Source: a virus. Taken from it: a DNA stretch of 46,348 nt. Positions 1-46,122 of the stretch are shown here, one piece after another; position 1 is the first letter of the stretch; the number at the start of each line of letters is the position of its first letter. The notes under the pieces are model-generated. The model was not told where the DNA came from and made no database searches. It worked only from the letters and a program-made list of their open reading frames with translations. The DNA lies in IMG/VR virus record IMGVR_UViG_3300023503_000002, positions 1 through 46,348 of that record. One strand, written 5' to 3'. Both the position numbers and the translations under genes were made by a program.

Positions 1-3000
1 GGCGATATGTATCTGTTTGGCAATCAAATTCCCAACAACAGGTATCTCTTTGGCGAACTTACGCAACTCATTTTTCCATGTCTCTGACCCTGTAGTCTTT
101 GTCAAATCTTCTATGTATTTTGCAGCTACACCAATTTCTGTCTCCGCCATCTCTTTTATTTTGGCCTTCTTCATGGTGTCTATAAGATTCGTAAGTCGAC
201 TATTGGTTCTAACCATGGCATTACCAAGTTTGTCATAACCAACAACCAAATTAACATTTTCTTCGGCCATTCTATTGGCAAGAGCTATAGCATCTTTACG
301 TATTTTAGCTTCAGATATTAATGGGCTTTCATAAGTACCAAGGTCTAACCTACGAGCCTTAACATCGGGTCTAGTAACCTTGTTTGCGTCAGCTATTCTT
401 TTATCTAAACTAGCATAAGCATTCCCAATAGAACGCATTTCTTGTAACTGCTCACTTTGCGTACGCCGTAAACCATAAAGACTCTGCTCATAGTCCTTGG
501 CAGACCTAGACATTTTAGCAAAATGATGTATAATTGCTTTAGCAGCTGGTACCATAGCTAATGTGGTCAAGGTTAATGGTGTAACTGAAGCTACAAACGA
601 GGCATTATTAGTTGCCCATTCCTTGAGAATCTTTTTACCACCAGCATTAAGATGTTCTCCAAAGGCCTCTAGAAGAATACCGCTTGCTGCTGCACCTATC
701 CCTGCTATCTCACTTGCCACATTAAACACTTTACCCAAAACTGCTTTAATACCAGAAGTAGAAATTGATTTTTCGACGCCCTCTTTTGACAAACCTTTAT
801 CTTTCACATATTTAATTATATCTGCCAAACGGCGTATTTTTCTACCACCGACAGTTGCTATTGAAGCAGTTGTGCTAATACTGGCACCGAATTCCACCAT
901 ACGCTTTCCAGCCTTCTCAGTAGACTCACCGATGCCGGTCATATTATCACCAAACACCTTGTTATATGCTCTTCCTAATTTAGTCAATAAGAAGAAAGTT
1001 TTACCAAGAGCGGAGTGAAAATCTTCTATGACTTCTCCTCTAGGTATATAATCTTCAGGAGAGTACACCGTTTTCTTACCCTTATCTGTTTCCACTATTT
1101 TGGGTTGGGCACCTTCCTTTACAACCTTCCCTAGGGTTTTCAAACCCAGAGCTTGTTTATGGGTCAATTTACCTAAATACTTATCAAGATTATTCCCGAA
1201 TAATTCAAACTGTGTTGTAGCAAGTTCAGATTTAAGTGCTGACACTACTCCACCAAAAACACTTTTACCTGAAGAGAAAATACCTCTAATACTTTCTATA
1301 GCGTCTGCACCTTTATAGAGGTACGCTAAAAAAGTTAACATACCAGTACCAATAAGCTTCATAGTATTAGGTATAGCGTTAAGGGTGTCTAGTATACTCC
1401 TTGTAACGTTTAATGTAGTTTTGAATATTGGTAGCACAGCCTTACCAACACTCATTTGTAGAGCTACTAAAGAAGCTTTGGTTTTTTCTACCTGCTTAGC
1501 GTAAGTTTTCATAATCTCATAATTCTTACGCTCAGCAGAACCTTTTGAGTTAATACTGTCTTTAGTGGCATCCAAAGCTTCCTGCCAGTTATGCATCAAA
1601 ACTAGTAAAGCATTGTACTGCCTAGTACCACCAATAGCCTGGGCAATATTCATTTTTTGGGCACTAGTCAAATCTTTCCATTTATCAGATAAGTCACTCA
1701 AAATATCAAAACCTGAACGTAGTTTACCCGCATTAGTCAAGACTGGTATGTTTAGTTTTGCTAACTCTGTTGGCCCTTTTTCTGAGAATAGCCTTCTAAA
1801 AATAAATCTTAATGATGTACCTACTTCCTTACCAGTTTGTCTTGTAACAGCACCAATAGCCGCTACAACACCATTCAATTGGTGAAAAGTTACACCAGCA
1901 CTTTTGGCTGCAGCAGCAGACTTTTTAATAGCAGCCGCCATGTCAGCAGCAGTAATAGCATGTCTAGACTCTACCTCACTCCACGCGTCCAGATATCTAA
2001 GACTGCTTTCCGATTCCTGCCCAAACATTTTAACAGCTGATGTTAGAGCTTCTGTAGCATCCTTCGTATTAAGAGTACTAACATTAGCCGCTAACAATGC
2101 TGTATTTGTTCTATCAAGAATTTCTCGCTGTCCTAAACCTTGTTGAGCAAAAATCTTCATAGCGCCAAGCACTTCTGTGGTAGCCTGTCCGTATCTTCTA
2201 GCAAAAACTGTAGCTGCCTGACCCATGGATTCAAAATCAGAAACCATAGGATTCATAACCATCCTAAGTTCGGCTATCTTAAGTTCTATCTCAGAAATAG
2301 TCTTAACAGCAGATTTCAGCTGTGAAAAACCACCGTAAACAATAGTAGACGCTGCGCCCCATTTTAAAGCTCTCGCCATCGCTCCACGTAGACCTCTACT
2401 AGTGCCTTGTAAAACAGATATTAAATCTGTAGCATGCTCTCTAAATTTACCAACAGACTTACCAGCAGCGTTAACAGCCTCTGCAAACTTATAAAAATCC
2501 ACACGTTGGTTTTTAACTACTTCCCCAGCACTACCTAGTACTTTTATATTATATGAAAAGCGTTCCCCAACTTTGGCTCCGCCCTCTTGAGATGACCGAG
2601 AAAAGTATTCACGTAATTTGGACAAATTGGCTTTATGCATAGCCAACTGTTCTTCTGGGGCTACCCATTTTGGTACAGGGGTAACACCAGTTTCCCCCCA
2701 TTCTTTTGGACGGTTAGTAAGATTTATCCTACTAAACATATCCTCAACATTCTTTAAGTACTTTATGACACCTTCTAAATTTTTACGTTGAGGTGCTAGC
2801 GTATCATCACTAACATTAAATTTCCTATACAACTCTAAAGCTTCTCTGATTTTGGCTATATTAGTAACCACAGTATCAAAATCCCAAGCTTTAGTTATCT
2901 CCGGGCCAATTCGTTTCATAAGTTCGGCATCTTCCACCAACTTAATCATTTCCTGATCCGTATCCATCAACACACCGAGTATATGGCGAGCTTTTTCAAT

Positions 3001-6000
3001 CGGAGTAGCAGTAATAGGTGCTTTACCCGACAAATCCTTAACAGCATAATTAAAGACTTTATTTAACGATGGGGACTCACCCAAACCTCTGTTGGATTTT
3101 TCTATGATCTCTTTTTGAGACATAAAAACCCCAGCAGCTCTAGCCAATTCTGGATTAAAGTACTGTTTGTCAGAAGTATAGATATCAGTTTGTTTTCCTA
3201 AACCTCTCCGAATAAACTGCTGCATTTGGTGAAGAGCTACCTTAAGATCTTTATACGCTGTTCTTTGAGAAGTAACATCACCAGCGGCTTTGGCTTCAGA
3301 TATACGTTTTTTAGCTTCCTCAGCCTGTTGCATATAAAAATCGCCAACAGCTATTTTATATAATCTCCAAGATTTGAATGTTTCGGTATCACTTATCTTA
3401 CCCGCGTCTCTTAAGGTATTAACCAATGAAACAAAGTACTTATAGTCTGGGCCAACTGTTTGAGCTTCTTTTATGGCTTTACTGATCCACTCATTCATGT
3501 TAGCCAAATCAGTTTTTATATTTATCCCACGTAGTGCTTGGATATGTTTAGCTTCCTCATGTAGTAACTTTAAATTATTGTACAATTGTGTAACACTGTC
3601 ACCAGCATTAGCAAAAGGGGTAGCACCAGCAGATGGTTTCTTAGGCCTAACGGACCAATCTATATCTTGTTTCCTATACAAGACTCCCTCTTTTTGTTTC
3701 AAGGAATTTATGTACCTTAAGTACATATCGGTCCCACCTTTCACCAACTTATCTATATCTTCTTGGGACGGTACTTCCCTTGAGGCTGTGTATAACTCTG
3801 CTTTAGAGGCAGTTCTAGCAAACCTACCACCTGATTGTTTGACCTGTTTCCTAGCTTCAGCAACAGCTGCCATATCCCTAGCAAATCTATCCGGGTCAAA
3901 AGAAAATTTTATTTTAAGTGCTTCATCGTTACCTTTAGCCAATCTGTCATAAAAATGAGCTTCAGCGTCAGCGTTTTCTCCCAAAGCCTTCATATAAACA
4001 TTGAGCTGTGAAGCAACAGTCTCAAGCTTTTGCCTAACAAGAGCGCCATCTGGAGTATCCTCGATAACTTTTAATATTGCTTCAAATGAGTTGGAGCCGG
4101 CTTTATCTACCAGTTTTGCTAACTTCTTTTTGAATCTAGCACTAACTGTTTTTATGTCTACAGCGGTTTCTTTGTTGCTTTCAAAATCTTTTATTATGGC
4201 ATCTATATGACCAGAAATCCATCCAGCTACTTCATCTTTAAACAGTATTAATCTTTCTATGTCGACATTTTCCCCCATCGACTCTTTCATCTTATTCTCG
4301 ATTACTTCATGCAATCCTGTACCAAGTATTGATGTAGACTTTAATAGATCATTTTCTGGGGCTGAACCTGTCATTACTTTTTTTATAGCCGCAATCTGTG
4401 ATTGGCGTAACGACTCAGGATCAAATTTAGTATTACCAAACTCACCACCACCATGTAACCCACTGGCTCTATATATGTGTTCAAAAGTAGTACCCTTACG
4501 AGTATTTATCCCGCCAGTAACCCTATCGGCTATTTTACGTAGCTCATCGTAAGAAAGGCTAGGCTCCCCTTGCTTAACAGCCTCAAACGCGGATGTCATA
4601 GTGCTGGTAGGGGTTCTTGCTAAAACCTTAGCTGCCGATGAAAAAATCTGGACAAGCTCATCAGACATACCAACCAAATATACAGGGACGACATCACCAG
4701 AAAAAGAAAATCTAGGTGACTTATCGCCATTACCTGGAGGTTGTGCACCAGCATCCCCACGAGGAGGCTCAGTAACCAGATACTGTTGTGTTCTACGTTT
4801 TACATCAGATACCCGTTCTGTTGCTAATCTTCTAATATCCTCAGTTTTATCCTTAGACATAATATACTGTGTACTGATCAATGCCTTATTGACATCATAC
4901 AAAGCCAAAACTGCTCTGGCTATCTCATTTAATTTTCTTTTTACTTCTTTATCTAACTCTGCTCCAGATAAACCTTTGGATTGTAGATCTTTAACAATCG
5001 AACCTGTTACTGTTTCGGCAACAGAAAATTCTATTTCCTTCTTTCTATAATCAGGGGTGCTACCTATACCAGAAATAAGTCTCAATTCACGTAGACTATC
5101 TTTATCTTTTATAAATCTTTCCAGTACTTTTGGCACTTCACCCTTAACTACTTGTGATGTTATTTTAGTTACATCCTCAGTAGGCTTATAACCTTCTTTA
5201 TCTAAAGAACTGTGGATACTTTTAACGTAATTAGCATGGATCTTACTAGTAGCTATACTGTTTTTAAGCATTTCACCGATCATGCTTTGATTTCTTACAG
5301 CATCTTTATTTATTTCTTCCGTTAATGTCCTAGCAAAATCACGTAAGTCAGAAAAGGATCTAACACTGGAAGATACTTTTCTAGCCCCACCTGAGGTCCT
5401 ATATCTATAGGACCCTTCTGTGGCTTTAACAGTTTGAACAGCTTCGCGTAAATCCCTTAAAAAGCCTTCAAAACCATAAGTAGATTTGGCTTTATCTATC
5501 AGCTCAGGTCTAGTTAACATCTCTGCCTGTTCTTTAGTAATGAGATTATCATCAACAACTGCCTTACGAATATCTTGTGTAGAATACGCACCTAATTTAG
5601 TTTCTATAGCTTTATAGTTTGCTTCTAAAAAGTCTTTCAGTTCACCTAAACCTTCTCCACCAGACTTAATCTCTTGTATGAGATTATCTAGTTTACTAGA
5701 GTCTTTTGATTTAAGTGCTTCTCTGAGAGCTGTTATAACTGTAGCTCCGCCGGCATGCTTAACGTCCATACCTTTTTGTATAGAAAAACGCATAAGCTCA
5801 TTCATTTGAGTATTACGTATACTACCAAACATAGATGTTGGTTGTATCAACGCACCGGTTCTTCGGTATGCTTCGTAGCTACGTTTTACCTCATTTATAG
5901 CTTCCACGTCTCTACCAGTATGTGCTTTAAACAACTGAGCTTCTATGGCTGCTTTTATTTTTTCTTGATTAAGAGCAGTACCTAACAACGCGTCTACAGC

Positions 6001-37749: not shown

Positions 37750-40470
37750 TTATTTATTTCTAGGTGTAAGGATTGCACTAGATGGGAGGATAATACCATT
37801 ACTCTTATTAGAAAAACCATCTACAGGATCCCATTGTGATGAATTATGGGCCCTTACTAAACCACCAAAATCAAACGTTACATTGGTATCTACTATCTCA
37901 GACTCTTTTTCCATAATCTTTGCGCCATAAACAGCCATTATAAGCGCTGAGTATAAGTCTTTATTTTGGCCTTTTTTAGGTGTATCAAAGTGTAAAGAAC
38001 CATTAGCATTTTGTGTAACAACAATATTAAACATTTGACGTTTAAGGACGTCTATAGTTTCAAAAACTTTATCGTCAGCTTCTGACGTAGAATAACTTAT
38101 TTCTGGGAAAAGCAATTTAGTGTCTTCCAGATAAGCTAATGTAGTAAAGTTGGCATTAGATATCCAAGCCGGATTAAAATGCACCATCTCTAAAATATGT
38201 AAACCTTCTTTGGTTAGATTGTGGTTATCGTTTCTATCAAGAATAGGAGTGTACCCATTATACCCCTCTTCTAATAAATTCTTAAGAGCGTTACCACCAC
38301 CCATCTGGTCCATGAATATTCTAGCTACATTATAGCTATCACAAAGCGATTGTATGTAAGTAACCATATCTTGTGTGGTCTTACCTTTAAGTTCTTTAGC
38401 AAAAACCACTTTTATCTTATTGTCCTCTAACTTACATACTATAATACCACAACTGGCCGAACCACCTTGGTTTGGGTCTATACCAATAATGTAGGAAGCT
38501 TCAGAAGACCCAGTAATCTCAATATTAAAACCACTATTTATAGTACATAACTCTACAACCGAGGCTTTAAAAAAGCCTTCAGAGTCTGAGACCATATCCG
38601 CCTCATACTCCATTCTGAATTCATGATCTGGCATAGTACGTCTAGCTTCTTCGATATTATCCATATCAAGGAAGCCTTCAGGTAGCATAGTGTACGGAAC
38701 CTGGTGTACAGCGTATTTTTTACTGTCATCATCACCTATAGCTATTTTATTCCAGTAACTACGCATACGTGCGTACATATGATTAAATTTGTAATAACCT
38801 GAAGAGGTCATTACCATTTTATTAACTGTATCTTCTTCGAAGTCTTCTTCTGTAGCAAGTCCTGCTTCTATAAGTTTCTTTTTCCTTGCTAAATATTTGA
38901 CATGCTCCATTGGGTCCTGTTTTGTGGCACCCATAGGACGTAAAACAAGATCCAATATTTTTGGTGGTACTTGTACAAGCTCATCTACACATACTAAATA
39001 AAAACGTGAACCACGAATTTTGGCACCATCATTACCTATAGGTATAGCTTCAATAAAAGAACCAGGCTGTCCCCCAACAGATTTAAATTTTAAATAACAG
39101 GTATCTGAACCTCTAATAGGTCTCTTCTCAGCAGCCTGCCTTAATATTGGTGATTTTGCGTATAGTTTTTCTACCTCGGCAAAAATAAACTTGGCCTGGC
39201 GAAAAGAGCTCGATACTAAACCAACTCTATATCCAGGATATAATAAAGCACTTAAAGTAGAAAGTACGCCTAAAATAAAAGTATTGTGGTTTATAAAACC
39301 ATTAGAGAAATAGTTAGGTTCTAAGTCTGTAGACTCCATCATAAAGTCGTAACAGTCACCTGACCACTCCTCGTTTTTATGAACGGTGTCTATAAAAAAG
39401 TCAGCAACCTGTGGACACTTTAAATCTAATAACTTTAATTTGCACTGTTTAGACTTGTCATTACAACCAATTAAATCCACAAACAACTTTGTGTAGTCTT
39501 CATGTACTACGATTACATATTTACCATATATGTTTAACACATTAGCAACTATACCAAAGTTGGCTAGAAGTAATTGAATCTCAGACGCCAGTCTTCTTTC
39601 CAAACCGTAACAATATATGGCCCCATTAATCTCACATTTGGTATCAAAGAACCCACGCAAAAATTCCTGTACTACATCCTTGCTAGCAGTCCTAACTATA
39701 TAAGGCACACAGTCTAACTGGTTACCCAAACCATATTTATCAAATAGATATGTAAAGTCATATAAAGTTACACTATCGCCGAAAACATTATAGTTTAAAT
39801 TATTTTTATTACAGAATTCTACAAAGAAAGATGTAGTGTCATCGTTGTTAAAATAAAATAACACACACCCATTAACATGTTTGGATTTTGTTGCTGTAAG
39901 AACACCTATTAAATACGCATCACTCTTTGTTAAGTGGTTGCTACCAAAAACTTGTTGGTTTATTTGTATGTATACTTTATCACCATACTGTACATCTTCC
40001 AAAGACTTGTACTGTAAAATACCTTGGTTAGAAACCAGTATCGGGTGATGGTTGCTGCCCTCATTAATAAATCCTGCTGATGTAGTTATCCTACGACCAT
40101 GTATATTGTGTTCTAGGGAGACTTTTCTAGTACTGTTAAACCCATCAAAAGTATAAACATCTAAATCATAATCGATTACTTCATCTTCCCCAGACTGCAA
40201 ATAAGAAGGCACTGGAGGTAATACTTCCCACATATGTACCATACCAGTGCCGCTAACTAATATAACACTGTCTATACTCTGGCTTTTACCAAAACCACGA
40301 GTACACACACTTATAACATAATTTTTGAACCACATATCCTCCAGTACCACACGTTGTACTGAAGTTAATTCTACCCCTAATAAATCATAAGCGGCTATAA
40401 CTGGTTGCTCTCTATAGAAAGCAACCATATCGCCGCCATTATCGAAAACATCTTTAACCTTTATGGACAT
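37750..40470 (-). CDS. terL: Large terminase subunit, interrupted by an intein
   Basis: 906 residues including a 334-residue intein (63-396); the spliced protein is 572 residues, normal for TerL. The Walker A loop is split: CTRGFGK before the intein and TFILGV after it rejoin as RGFGKT. Walker B is YLVCVDE (D496, E497). The RNase H-like nuclease has D665 (IIGIDP), D721 (IFMDQ) and D838 (KDLYSA). A coupling segment with TSSGYYKFNHMY lies near 555-566. TerL packages DNA into the head through the portal, using ATP, and cuts the concatemer. It begins in a TAATG overlap with the presumed small terminase. Confidence 0.93.
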   Translation of the reverse strand: MSIKVKDVFDNGGDMVAFYREQPVIAAYDLLGVELTSVQRVVLEDMWFKNYVISVCTRGFGKSQSIDSVILVSGTGMVHMWEVLPPVPSYLQSGEDEVIDYDLDVYTFDGFNSTRKVSLEHNIHGRRITTSAGFINEGSNHHPILVSNQGILQYKSLEDVQYGDKVYIQINQQVFGSNHLTKSDAYLIGVLTATKSKHVNGCVLFYFNNDDTTSFFVEFCNKNNLNYNVFGDSVTLYDFTYLFDKYGLGNQLDCVPYIVRTASKDVVQEFLRGFFDTKCEINGAIYCYGLERRLASEIQLLLANFGIVANVLNIYGKYVIVVHEDYTKLFVDLIGCNDKSKQCKLKLLDLKCPQVADFFIDTVHKNEEWSGDCYDFMMESTDLEPNYFSNGFINHNTFILGVLSTLSALLYPGYRVGLVSSSFRQAKFIFAEVEKLYAKSPILRQAAEKRPIRGSDTCYLKFKSVGGQPGSFIEAIPIGNDGAKIRGSRFYLVCVDELVQVPPKILDLVLRPMGATKQDPMEHVKYLARKKKLIEAGLATEEDFEEDTVNKMVMTSSGYYKFNHMYARMRSYWNKIAIGDDDSKKYAVHQVPYTMLPEGFLDMDNIEEARRTMPDHEFRMEYEADMVSDSEGFFKASVVELCTINSGFNIEITGSSEASYIIGIDPNQGGSASCGIIVCKLEDNKIKVVFAKELKGKTTQDMVTYIQSLCDSYNVARIFMDQMGGGNALKNLLEEGYNGYTPILDRNDNHNLTKEGLHILEMVHFNPAWISNANFTTLAYLEDTKLLFPEISYSTSEADDKVFETIDVLKRQMFNIVVTQNANGSLHFDTPKKGQNKDLYSALIMAVYGAKIMEKESEIVDTNVTFDFGGLVRAHNSSQWDPVDGFSNKSNGIILPSSAILTPRNK
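39283..40284 (-). mobile_element. Intein in the TerL Walker A loop with decayed LAGLIDADG endonuclease
   Basis: Residues 63-396 of the TerL ORF. It begins with Ser63 and an SxxxDS block A (SQSIDSVILVSGTG), has the block B NHHPILV (H141-H142-P143) and ends with block F/G NGFINHN followed by Thr397, the splice nucleophile. Splicing restores RGFGK-T. The middle has two LAGLIDADG-like helices, LIGVLTATK (187-195) and LRGFFDTKC (271-279), in which the metal-binding Asp residues are Thr194 and Lys278. Splicing should work; homing cleavage should not. Confidence 0.9.
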
Positions 40471-40985: not shown

Positions 40986-41417
40986 TTACAACAAATCCTC
41001 TATATTAATATCATCTATATTGTTTTCTTTTATCTCTTCTTTCAAGATAAGAACCCTTTCTGGGGTCAATTTATGACTACATGAATCAATATCTATATTT
41101 GACTGGGTCTCTGTCCTAGTGCTATTATACAAAGCCCTAGTAGTCATTATGTCTGAACTCTCGTCAAGTTCATCTGAGGCCTTATTAGCCCACTCACACA
41201 ACTCATCATCGTCTGCTCGACAATATGTGTTTATTATTTCCTTAGATAATGGGTTTATCTTCCTAAAATAGGCTAACAAAGACTTGGATATTTTGTCTTT
41301 GGTTTCTTGTGAATGTCTCTGTCCGGTCTTAGCTCGACTTATAGCGCGCTTACTTTCTTCACTTAATTTAAAACCCAAAGGCCGGCCGCACTTTTTACGT
41401 TGTTTATTCTCTCCCAA
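40986..41417 (-). CDS. NUMOD3-like DNA-binding protein
   Basis: 143 residues. The N-terminal 50 residues contain paired NUMOD3-type motifs, GRPLGFKLSEESKRAISRAK and RHSQETKDKISKSLLAYFRK, of the kind found in DNA-binding regions of homing endonucleases. There is no GIY-YIG or HNH catalytic domain, and the rest is acidic and helical. TTG (41417) is the start, with GAGGAGG 6 bases upstream. It is the last gene before the terminase pair. It could be a DNA-binding packaging helper, the real pac-recognition subunit, or a regulator. It may also be the remnant of a homing endonuclease. The motif is seen; the role is inferred. Confidence 0.6.
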   Translation of the reverse strand: MGENKQRKKCGRPLGFKLSEESKRAISRAKTGQRHSQETKDKISKSLLAYFRKINPLSKEIINTYCRADDDELCEWANKASDELDESSDIMTTRALYNSTRTETQSNIDIDSCSHKLTPERVLILKEEIKENNIDDINIEDLL

Positions 41418-43443: not shown

Positions 43444-43932
43444 CTAACCATATAATCTTTTTAAGTCATCTATATAAACACGCTCATAGTTGTGAGCCGT
43501 ATCTTTTAGCAACAGTTTACGTATATTACCGCCGTCCCTAAAAGCCACATGCACCCAACCATCTGGGGCGTATTCTAAAATGAGCTCTCTAAAATCCAGT
43601 TTGTTATAAATAAAACTAACCACATCAACTAGCTTTATAGAGTCATCATAAGGTTCTATATCAGCAGCTTGTCCTCTTGTGTGGTTAGATTTAGCACTAC
43701 TACCTACGGCCTCACACAATTCTACAGTACGATAGCCACTTGTAATTCGTATAGGCCCAAACTCATTACGTACTGGTTGAAGAATATTCACAGCTAGCTT
43801 CTCGATACACTCCCAAATGTAATCATCTTTGGGAATGTTATCGATACCAAATCTAGTAGCTGTATAGGACTTTACAAATTCCTTATACTTAAAATTTGGG
43901 GCCCCAGATATGTATGAATTCAAATCACGCAT
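43444..43932 (-). CDS. M15A-type peptidoglycan peptidase (endolysin candidate)
   Basis: 162 residues from the ATG at 43932, 8 bases after GAGG. A TTG two codons earlier has too short a spacing. The zinc site is present: SNHTRGQAAD (H84, D91) and WVHVAF (H128), with the fold marks ILQPVRNEFGPIRITSGYR of the M15A_3 family. These enzymes cut L-Ala-D-Glu or D-Ala-D-Ala bonds in cell-wall peptides. It has neither a signal peptide nor a wall-binding domain, so it would need a holin to reach the wall. It follows the actin-like gene closely. The likely role is lysis, though a packaging-linked virion peptidase cannot be excluded. Confidence 0.85.
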   Translation of the reverse strand: MRDLNSYISGAPNFKYKEFVKSYTATRFGIDNIPKDDYIWECIEKLAVNILQPVRNEFGPIRITSGYRTVELCEAVGSSAKSNHTRGQAADIEPYDDSIKLVDVVSFIYNKLDFRELILEYAPDGWVHVAFRDGGNIRKLLLKDTAHNYERVYIDDLKRLYG

Positions 43933-43942
43933 ACACAATACC

Positions 43943-44935
43943 TCATAACTGACTAGCTAAAAAGCAACCATTGGCTACTGCCGTATATGGGGATTCTGCT
44001 AAAACTACTTCTGCTACCTCAAAAGGCAGAGACACAGAATCTATAGCTGCACTTATCTTTTCTACAAAACCTTTTGCTTGTGATAAACCACCAGCAACAA
44101 CAACCTTCACAGGTTTAGTAAACACTGGTAGTTTACGATTTTTAGAATTTAACTCATACTCTATATTATTCACAAGATAGTTTATTACGGATGAGTAATA
44201 AACTGATATAGCTTCTTTTATCTTGTTGTCAGGATTATCTAAGTCTATACCAGACTCTTTCTCAAGCTGAACCAGTGACGGTGATATGTCCAAAGCCATA
44301 GCCACTGCTTGGTCAATGTAATCACCTGATTTTGTCACGGAGAAATCTACCAGAGGATCGCCTTGGTGTATTACAGAAACATTACACATCCCGGCACCAA
44401 AAGATATAGAAACACCAGTCAAATCATCATCGAGTAACTCTGACAAAGCTATAGCAAAAGCTTCGTTTATAGGTTGTGGTGAGTAACCTAATTCTCTGAA
44501 ATACATATTCAAAATCTCAGTGTGATATACAATATCAAAATTATGATCTACTGGATTTGCAGGAACAGAATAAATCAATCGTTCCTTATCCTCTGAAGGC
44601 TCACCAAGAATATTCTTTAACAACAGTTTCAACATTGGTAGTGATTTTTTCTCTTTCGGTGAGATTACACCTTTAGACATTGGGCGTAACGCTACGTCAT
44701 TACGTTCCATGGCTATATGCAAACTATCTTCACCAACAACTATGAAATCATCACTATTAACTATAAAATTAGATCCTCTTTTCTCTAAAGAGGATTTTAT
44801 TGCTTGTCTGTTAACTTCACTTTTAGGAACTATTCTGTAAAAAGCATCACGCTCCATCCTAAACCTGGTAGCGCCGTCTTCACCAGAATAACCACACACA
44901 AGCATATTTGTACCAACATCTAAACCTTTTCCCAT
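43943..44935 (-). CDS. Actin-like ATPase (ParM/MreB superfamily)
   Basis: 330 residues. Phosphate-1 loop GLDVGTN (4-10), a middle segment with INEAFAIAL (156-164; E158 in the place of the activating Glu), a phosphate-2 region ISFGAGMCNVSVI (177-189), and an adenosine motif VVVAGGLSQAKGF (278-290). In phosphate-2 the usual Asp is Ser178 and GTT is GMC. This fits a divergent ParM-like filament ATPase more than Hsp70 because it has no peptide-binding C-terminal domain. The upstream 195-residue coiled-coil gene may encode its partner. Possible roles are DNA or virion positioning, or segregation. AAAGGTG precedes ATG. Confidence 0.75.
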   Translation of the reverse strand: MGKGLDVGTNMLVCGYSGEDGATRFRMERDAFYRIVPKSEVNRQAIKSSLEKRGSNFIVNSDDFIVVGEDSLHIAMERNDVALRPMSKGVISPKEKKSLPMLKLLLKNILGEPSEDKERLIYSVPANPVDHNFDIVYHTEILNMYFRELGYSPQPINEAFAIALSELLDDDLTGVSISFGAGMCNVSVIHQGDPLVDFSVTKSGDYIDQAVAMALDISPSLVQLEKESGIDLDNPDNKIKEAISVYYSSVINYLVNNIEYELNSKNRKLPVFTKPVKVVVAGGLSQAKGFVEKISAAIDSVSLPFEVAEVVLAESPYTAVANGCFLASQL

Positions 44936-44953: not shown

Positions 44954-45541
44954 TTATATTTTACCTACTAGATTTTTTAGTTTATTGACTTTGTCATTAA
45001 CCTTATCCCTATTTGTCGAGGCTATTGATGTGTCATTAACATCTATATGATCCTCTAAGGATTCTAAATCACCAGAAGAAGTTGGGTCTACAACAACACT
45101 GTCTATACTCGGTCTTGAGTTATCAACTACCGGTGATGTGCTGTCAACACTGGTCTGTACTACAACAGGTTTATGTTCTTTTAGTGTTGCAATAAGTTCG
45201 TCCTTGGAGGCAACTATGGCCTCCAAGGACGCTACTTTAAATTCCAATTCTTTTACTTTTTGTTCGTACTCAGTTACTACTTTGTTTATTTCCTGTTTAG
45301 TAGCTTCAGCAACAGCTTTGTTAAATTCATCGTCTAAAATATCTTCTGTAGTTTGTCCCCCATTATGAGCAGGTTCTGAAATCATTTCTCTGTAAATCTT
45401 TAGTTGTGCTGTCAGCTCTTTTATGATCTCATCTTTAGAATCAGCATCTTTACCAGACCTGGACAAGGCTTTTAATTGCATGTCCCTTGGACCAGAACCT
45501 ATTTTGTTTAAACGATTTTTCTTATAAACTATTGACGACAT
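44954..45541 (-). CDS. Coiled-coil protein linked to actin-like ATPase
   Basis: 195 residues. The middle (about 38-125) is a long charged coiled coil (EEKV/LE heptads), followed by a disordered Ser/Asp/Val segment (about 125-175) and a short basic C-terminal helix (RDKVNDKVNKLKNLVGKI). The N-terminus is basic (SSIVYKKNRLNKIGSG). It begins in a TAATG overlap with the ClpP gene and sits just before the actin-like gene. A coiled-coil protein with basic ends could link filaments to DNA or another partner, as ParR does for ParM, though there is no ribbon-helix-helix. Its relation to the actin-like ATPase is from gene order only. Confidence 0.6.
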   Translation of the reverse strand: MSSIVYKKNRLNKIGSGPRDMQLKALSRSGKDADSKDEIIKELTAQLKIYREMISEPAHNGGQTTEDILDDEFNKAVAEATKQEINKVVTEYEQKVKELEFKVASLEAIVASKDELIATLKEHKPVVVQTSVDSTSPVVDNSRPSIDSVVVDPTSSGDLESLEDHIDVNDTSIASTNRDKVNDKVNKLKNLVGKI

Positions 45542-46122
45542 TAACTTCTGCTTTCCTCCACAATATCTATAATACCAAACTCCTTAGCTTCGTCAGCATT
45601 CATCCAACGATCTGTTTCCATATACTTTTTAAGGCTTCTCACACTCTTGCCTGTAAACTTTGAGTAGTATTCAGCCAGCTTGTTATGGATGTGTGTCATA
45701 TGTTCGAAGTCAACTTTAATATCGTGATATTTACCTTTTGCTCCAGAACTAAGCTCATGGATCATAATCTCAGTATTTGGTAAAGCCACTCTTTTACCTT
45801 TTGTCCCAGCAGAAAGAATAAAACTAGCTGCGCTGCAGCAGCTACCATAACCTACTGTCCTGATGTCAGGTCTAATGTAATTCATGGCGTCATAGATAGC
45901 GAAAGCACTAGAAATAGATCCACCAGGAGAGTTGATGTAGATATTAATATCCTTGTCAGGGTCTTGTGATTCAAGAAACAGAAGCTGTGCTACCACGCTG
46001 TCAGCCATGGCATCATTGAATTCACCGCGAATAAATACAATCCTGTCCTTAAGCATGCGGGAATAAACATCATAAACCTTCTCACGATCATCTGTACCTT
46101 GGATAACATACGGTAGTGTCAT
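45541..46122 (-). CDS. clpP: ClpP-type serine protease
   Basis: 193 residues, a full-length ClpP with the catalytic triad Ser97 (GYGSCCSAAS), His122 (IMIHELSSG) and Asp171 (METDRWM), the same residue numbers as mature E. coli ClpP. The oligomerisation handle and the INSPGGSISSAFAIYDAM segment are present. It likely forms tetradecamers and may pair with the host Clp ATPases, or serve virion or host-protein processing. It is the first gene of the operon, with a sigma70-like promoter 80-120 bases upstream. No ATPase is encoded in the window. A separate prohead-type protease is present at 33.3-34.4 kb, so this one need not be the capsid protease. Confidence 0.92.
   Translation of the reverse strand: MTLPYVIQGTDDREKVYDVYSRMLKDRIVFIRGEFNDAMADSVVAQLLFLESQDPDKDINIYINSPGGSISSAFAIYDAMNYIRPDIRTVGYGSCCSAASFILSAGTKGKRVALPNTEIMIHELSSGAKGKYHDIKVDFEHMTHIHNKLAEYYSKFTGKSVRSLKKYMETDRWMNADEAKEFGIIDIVEESRS

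Follow-up and report, generated by a model that had tools for sequence, protein, structure and literature searches.

A class 1 LAGLIDADG intein in the P-loop of a viral terminase large subunit, very probably spliced but with its homing nuclease lost

The terL gene in the stretch of DNA analyzed here (IMG/VR virus record IMGVR_UViG_3300023503_000002, 46,348 bases of a virus contig, possibly incomplete; in the following, the window) is interrupted between the Lys and the Thr of its P-loop by a class 1 LAGLIDADG intein, which very probably represents a late phase of the homing cycle in which splicing has been kept and the nuclease has been lost. Taken alone, the intein shows an ordinary late stage of that cycle; the new part, which is modest, is a TerL lineage with three intein sites and, within one uncultivated virus family, a full allele series: empty, active, half-decayed, and shortened. 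The series makes the predictions of the homing-cycle model countable (that nucleases decay repeatedly, that DNA binding is lost, and that splicing stays constant) and supplies natural pairs of inteins for splicing and cleavage assays.

The intein and its splicing half

The terminase large subunit (TerL) precursor of 906 amino acids is encoded on the minus strand, as are all features described below, by an open reading frame (ORF) at 37750–40470, which matches PHROG 2, terminase large subunit (E 1.4e-18), and has the parts of a phage TerL, a P-loop ATPase and a C-terminal nuclease, beside terS and portal genes. Alignment to intein-free relatives places the N-extein (residues 1–62, ending in CTRGFGK) at 40285–40470; the C-extein (510 residues and the stop codon, starting with TFILGVLS), to which the PHROG match applies, lies at 37750–39282 and comprises the remainder of the P-loop ATPase followed by the nuclease domain. 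The 334-residue intein in between (39283–40284; precursor residues 63–396, RGFGK|T) is delimited by its junctions, by a structure model, and by a full-length fold match; it starts with Ser1 (precursor residue 63) and ends in His333-Asn334, followed by Thr+1, the GFINHN|T junction lying at 396/397. Its removal is predicted from the sequence to yield a TerL of 572 residues with an unbroken P-loop (ISVCTRGFGK-TFILGVLS) in which RGFGKT is restored. An earlier, sequence-only reading had described the intein by its ends, Ser1, the NHHP of block B, the HN-Thr terminus, and the restored RGFGKT, and was exact to the base.

The N-terminal splicing (HINT) half (intein residues 1–114; 39943–40284) contains block A (beginning SQSIDS) and block B, GSNHHP, the second His of which (H80) is the invariant one; the C-terminal half (residues 296–334; 39283–39399) contains block F, GDCYDF, with D313, and block G, NGFINHN. 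Ser or Cys at position 1, H80, D313, the penultimate His (H333), and N334 are present in all 25 complete inteins found at this junction (site a, the window counted); position 1 is Ser in 21 and Cys in four of them, and Thr+1 follows at every readable site-a junction. Class 3 inteins have no nucleophile at position 1 and are marked by a WCT triplet, with Cys for Asp at block F:4. Such an assignment was rejected, Ser1 being present and D313 being found in 25/25; with both in place the window intein is, as far as its residues tell, class 1. The block F His position holds Pro in all 22 close members but His in the three outgroup alleles; the Pro thus characterizes the family and does not point to damage in the window.

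An AlphaFold2 (AF2) model of the intein, built from 22 sequences, has a mean pLDDT of 87.4 and a pTM of 0.90. It matches end to end the inteins TliVMA (7qss/7qsu; Z 28.6, 313 residues, 3.8 Å) and PI-PfuI (1dq3; Z 26.5), which are its best full-intein fold matches, as well as PhoVMA (Z 24.7, 287 residues); the splicing half of the model has the HINT fold of the GyrA intein 1am2 (Z 17.7, rmsd 2.2 over 144 residues), and the LAGLIDADG fold emerges from structure matches to I-DmoI and PI-PfuI. On its own, the window intein falls short of the Pfam gathering scores (LAGLIDADG_3, E 4e-4, under the curated cut-off), probably through decay, since intact relatives at the same site pass LAGLIDADG_3 (E ~1e-23; Intein_splicing, E 5e-7 to 3e-6). 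The scores of these relatives, together with the match to TliVMA, mean that the intein call is not due to chance.

Several other genes of the window deserve mention. NUMOD3 motifs bind DNA and typically occur in homing endonucleases; a protein of 143 amino acids with two such motifs is encoded at 40986–41417, near terL. It was considered as a free-standing nuclease mobilizing the intein in trans, and rejected, because the gene is a conserved neighbor of terL in 110 related loci and is thus probably a core packaging gene which shares the motif, not a homing gene. Also near the packaging genes are a Clp protease (45541–46122, E 1e-68), which may serve as the prohead protease, and, at 43444–43938, a Peptidase M15. 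An actin-family protein (43943–44935) matches the Pfam family Volactin (E 1.3e-65), named after a haloarchaeal actin; among annotated phages, it matches only two uncultured ones, of 485 and 595 kb, at 31% identity. Some TerL relatives sit on contigs of 189–234 kb, and the window may therefore be a genome fragment, from either a jumbo phage or an archaeal virus.

Nuclease decay among alleles of the same site

Between the splicing halves lies a degenerate LAGLIDADG homing endonuclease domain (intein residues 115–295; 39400–39942). Active LAGLIDADG enzymes have an acid at the end of both helices; in the window, the first helix (block C, AYLIGVLTAT, 39889–39927) has Thr132 (ORF residue 194) in place of the catalytic Asp, and the second (block E, EFLRGFFDTK, 39637–39681) has Lys216 (ORF residue 278) in place of the catalytic Asp/Glu, after which ~100 residues present in intact relatives are missing. 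The two columns hold Asp in 12 relatives and acids in PI-PfuI, which is the best PDB sequence match to the family profile (E 1.5e-14) and in which they fall on AGDG (D149) and FDAEG (E250), positions counted from the alignment. The loss of both Asp (Thr194, Lys278) had already been noticed in the sequence-only reading, and in no better alignment did an intact LAGLIDADG emerge. Its wider claim, that splicing was kept and homing lost, also finds support: the splicing residues are conserved in 25/25, no second TerL is present in the record, and the nuclease domain lacks both acids and is shortened, acidic, and fast evolving. The loss of ~100 residues, the reversal of charge in the nuclease, and the Pro for the block F His go beyond that reading.

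Three scans of viral contigs gave 101 distinct TerL relatives, most of them 53–61% identical to the window extein; as one of the three scans used the intein as query, occupancy frequencies are not to be read from the counts. The empty site, a zero-length gap at RGxGK|T, occurs in dozens of relatives (~40–61% identity), so that the intein-free alleles for which a search had been proposed are abundant, and on the extein tree some empty alleles adjoin carriers (L006/L028, L003/L030, L060/L016). Besides site a, there are two more intein sites in TerL, b after FRQ (before Ser) and c in LPLGDG|SKIRG, and one of them is occupied as well in 14 of the 25 site-a carriers; these two-intein genes (L025, L036, L039, L049, L051, L052, L053, L057, L062, L065, L067, L072, L086, and L092) combine a with b or a with c and encode precursors of up to ~1450 residues. 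In three distant TerL relatives (L071, L074, L080) the first residue of an intein at the P-loop junction reads Thr (GRGSGK|TLSY...FINHN|STLVG), which would be an unusual splicing nucleophile; both nuclease acids are present there. In L021, a search match (447–4128) extends far beyond the intein-free terL ORF (2437–4170).

Of the 25 site-a inteins, 12 retain both catalytic acids, typically in LIGDG and YFDTDG, whereas the other 13 have lost at least one, with various replacements (T/K in the window, A/S, C/A, C/N, G/N, N/N, and others); lengths range from 444 down to 284 amino acids. The intact ones (L001–L006, L036, L053, L060, L062, L063, L065; all from uncultivated viruses) share the TerL family and the junction with the window, but are 431–440 amino acids long, with a basic nuclease, and are 37–42% identical to its shorter, decayed intein. 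On the tree of the 22 close members the nuclease was lost at least six times, with any intact tip as root and lost acids assumed never to return, a count which is only approximate because deep support is weak and fast tips, the window among them, cluster.

Two comparisons that make no use of the catalytic acids themselves point in the same direction. The ratio of summed terminal branch lengths, nuclease to splicing domain, on a fixed tree is 2.37 for degenerate and 1.08 for intact alleles; the pI of the nuclease domain is 8.87–9.66 in 12/12 intact alleles, against a median of 5.92 in degenerate ones (5.92, net charge -2, in the window), while that of the splicing domain does not differ. The p values (Mann-Whitney p = 0.001 for the per-tip branch ratios, p = 0.0035 for pI) are optimistic because tips share ancestry and because the lost-acid label and long nuclease branches are to some degree linked. 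A basic nuclease persists in five of the 13 degenerate alleles, and hence the acids can go before the charge does. For dN/dS, no sufficiently close intein turned up, the nearest relatives at site a being ~42% identical to that of the window, and a search of cellular genomes for a close donor gave distant matches only (23–30% identity).

History of the insertion and competing readings

An intein with an active endonuclease would have invaded this terL; with little left to gain from cutting, both metal-binding acids, the basic DNA-binding surface, and ~100 residues would then have been lost, each of which losses can be read directly from the window. The splicing half would have stayed under selection, since ATP binding requires a spliced P-loop and the record (46,348 bases, possibly incomplete) contains no second terL; invariant residues and a single gene are what is seen. 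Going by the conserved chemistry, Ser1 of the precursor would attack the Lys-Ser bond, Thr+1 would then take over the N-extein, and Asn334 would cyclize with the help of His333, releasing the mature TerL. Sequence and model agree that the intein looks able to splice itself out, and splicing is likely required, because the insert parts Lys from Thr in a single terL and the surrounding packaging genes have open frames and are conserved among relatives. No benefit to the phage is needed to explain the data: decay of the nuclease once the site was filled is enough.

It is unlikely, among the other accounts, that the dead nuclease was kept as a helper of splicing or as a sensor which times TerL or, for the family only, that the site-a intein hitch-hikes on that of site b. 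Nucleases at site b are intact in 19/23 inteins versus about half at site a, the two sites are 87 bp apart, and a second intein accompanies 10/13 degenerate versus 4/12 intact site-a alleles (Fisher p = 0.047, uncorrected for ancestry); co-conversion could thus carry a dead site-a intein along with its active neighbor. This concerns the family and not the window: every site-b intein precedes a Ser, where the window has no b intein and an Ala that would not allow such an intein to splice, so that it cannot readily host one.

More doubtful is that the intein was retained because its splicing is conditional, delaying TerL activation until a redox, temperature, or DNA signal and thus packaging until late. 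There are precedents in other proteins (e.g., PMC5790916, PMC6195587), the block F Cys (C311) is invariant across the 22-member family, and the nuclease fold is kept without function according to the model. However, with Ser at position 1 there is no Cys1 on which a disulfide trap could form, the extein Cys at -7 is not conserved among carriers, the many relatives lacking an intein at site a work and so do not need a splicing switch, and five of five mycobacteriophage TerL inteins tested spliced readily (PMC5050341). The suggestion of the sequence-only reading that packaging might depend on redox or temperature therefore finds no support, nuclease loss alone accounting for the data.

Still less probable is a dead gene, that is, an intein which no longer splices, in a defective virus or a pseudogene. 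Within the group of 22, the splicing half of the window indeed stands furthest from the rest (median identity 48%, versus 54–61% for the others), to which slowly decaying or altered splicing fits as well as drift, but no catalytic splicing residue is missing, and terL and its neighbors are open frames with counterparts beside terL on other contigs (a portal gene in 137 loci, a TerS-like gene in 126). Least credible of all is an endonuclease that still cuts, or nicks, with Thr and Lys for the acids: the modeled fold is intact and the frame open, but both metal-binding positions are non-acidic, one of them Lys, the domain is acidic and shortened, and PhoVMA, also without active-site acids, neither bound nor cut (PMC8966425).

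Comparison with known inteins

The loss of a nuclease once its site is occupied is what the homing-cycle model describes (PMC3229294, PMC8966425), and the window follows this model throughout, at a known TerL site and with no departure from it. The TerL1-a inteins of mycobacteriophages lie between the invariant Lys and Thr, a classic P-loop insertion (Kelley et al. 2016; PMC5050341), and thus correspond to the window intein in gene function and insertion point, matched here by the description of the site. Five other mycobacteriophage TerL inteins (sites b, c, e, f, and g) spliced in reporter constructs, and those of TerL1-b and TerL1-c are active endonucleases which cut intein-free alleles (PMC5050341); in contrast, the window intein has lost its acids, and it belongs to another TerL lineage, from unrelated host phages.

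The best full-length structural counterparts differ from the window in this respect: PI-PfuI has acids at both LAGLIDADG positions and TliVMA cleaves, while the window has Thr and Lys. The active TliVMA has a pI of 10.23 and the inactive, non-binding PhoVMA one of 5.45 (PMC8966425), the same shift as between the intact relatives and the window. PhoVMA (Pyrococcus horikoshii, 7qst) resides in an archaeal V-ATPase, has 376 amino acids, and is only 16% identical to the window intein; nevertheless, being folded, acidic, and LAGLIDADG without the catalytic acids, it is the nearest solved precedent for it.
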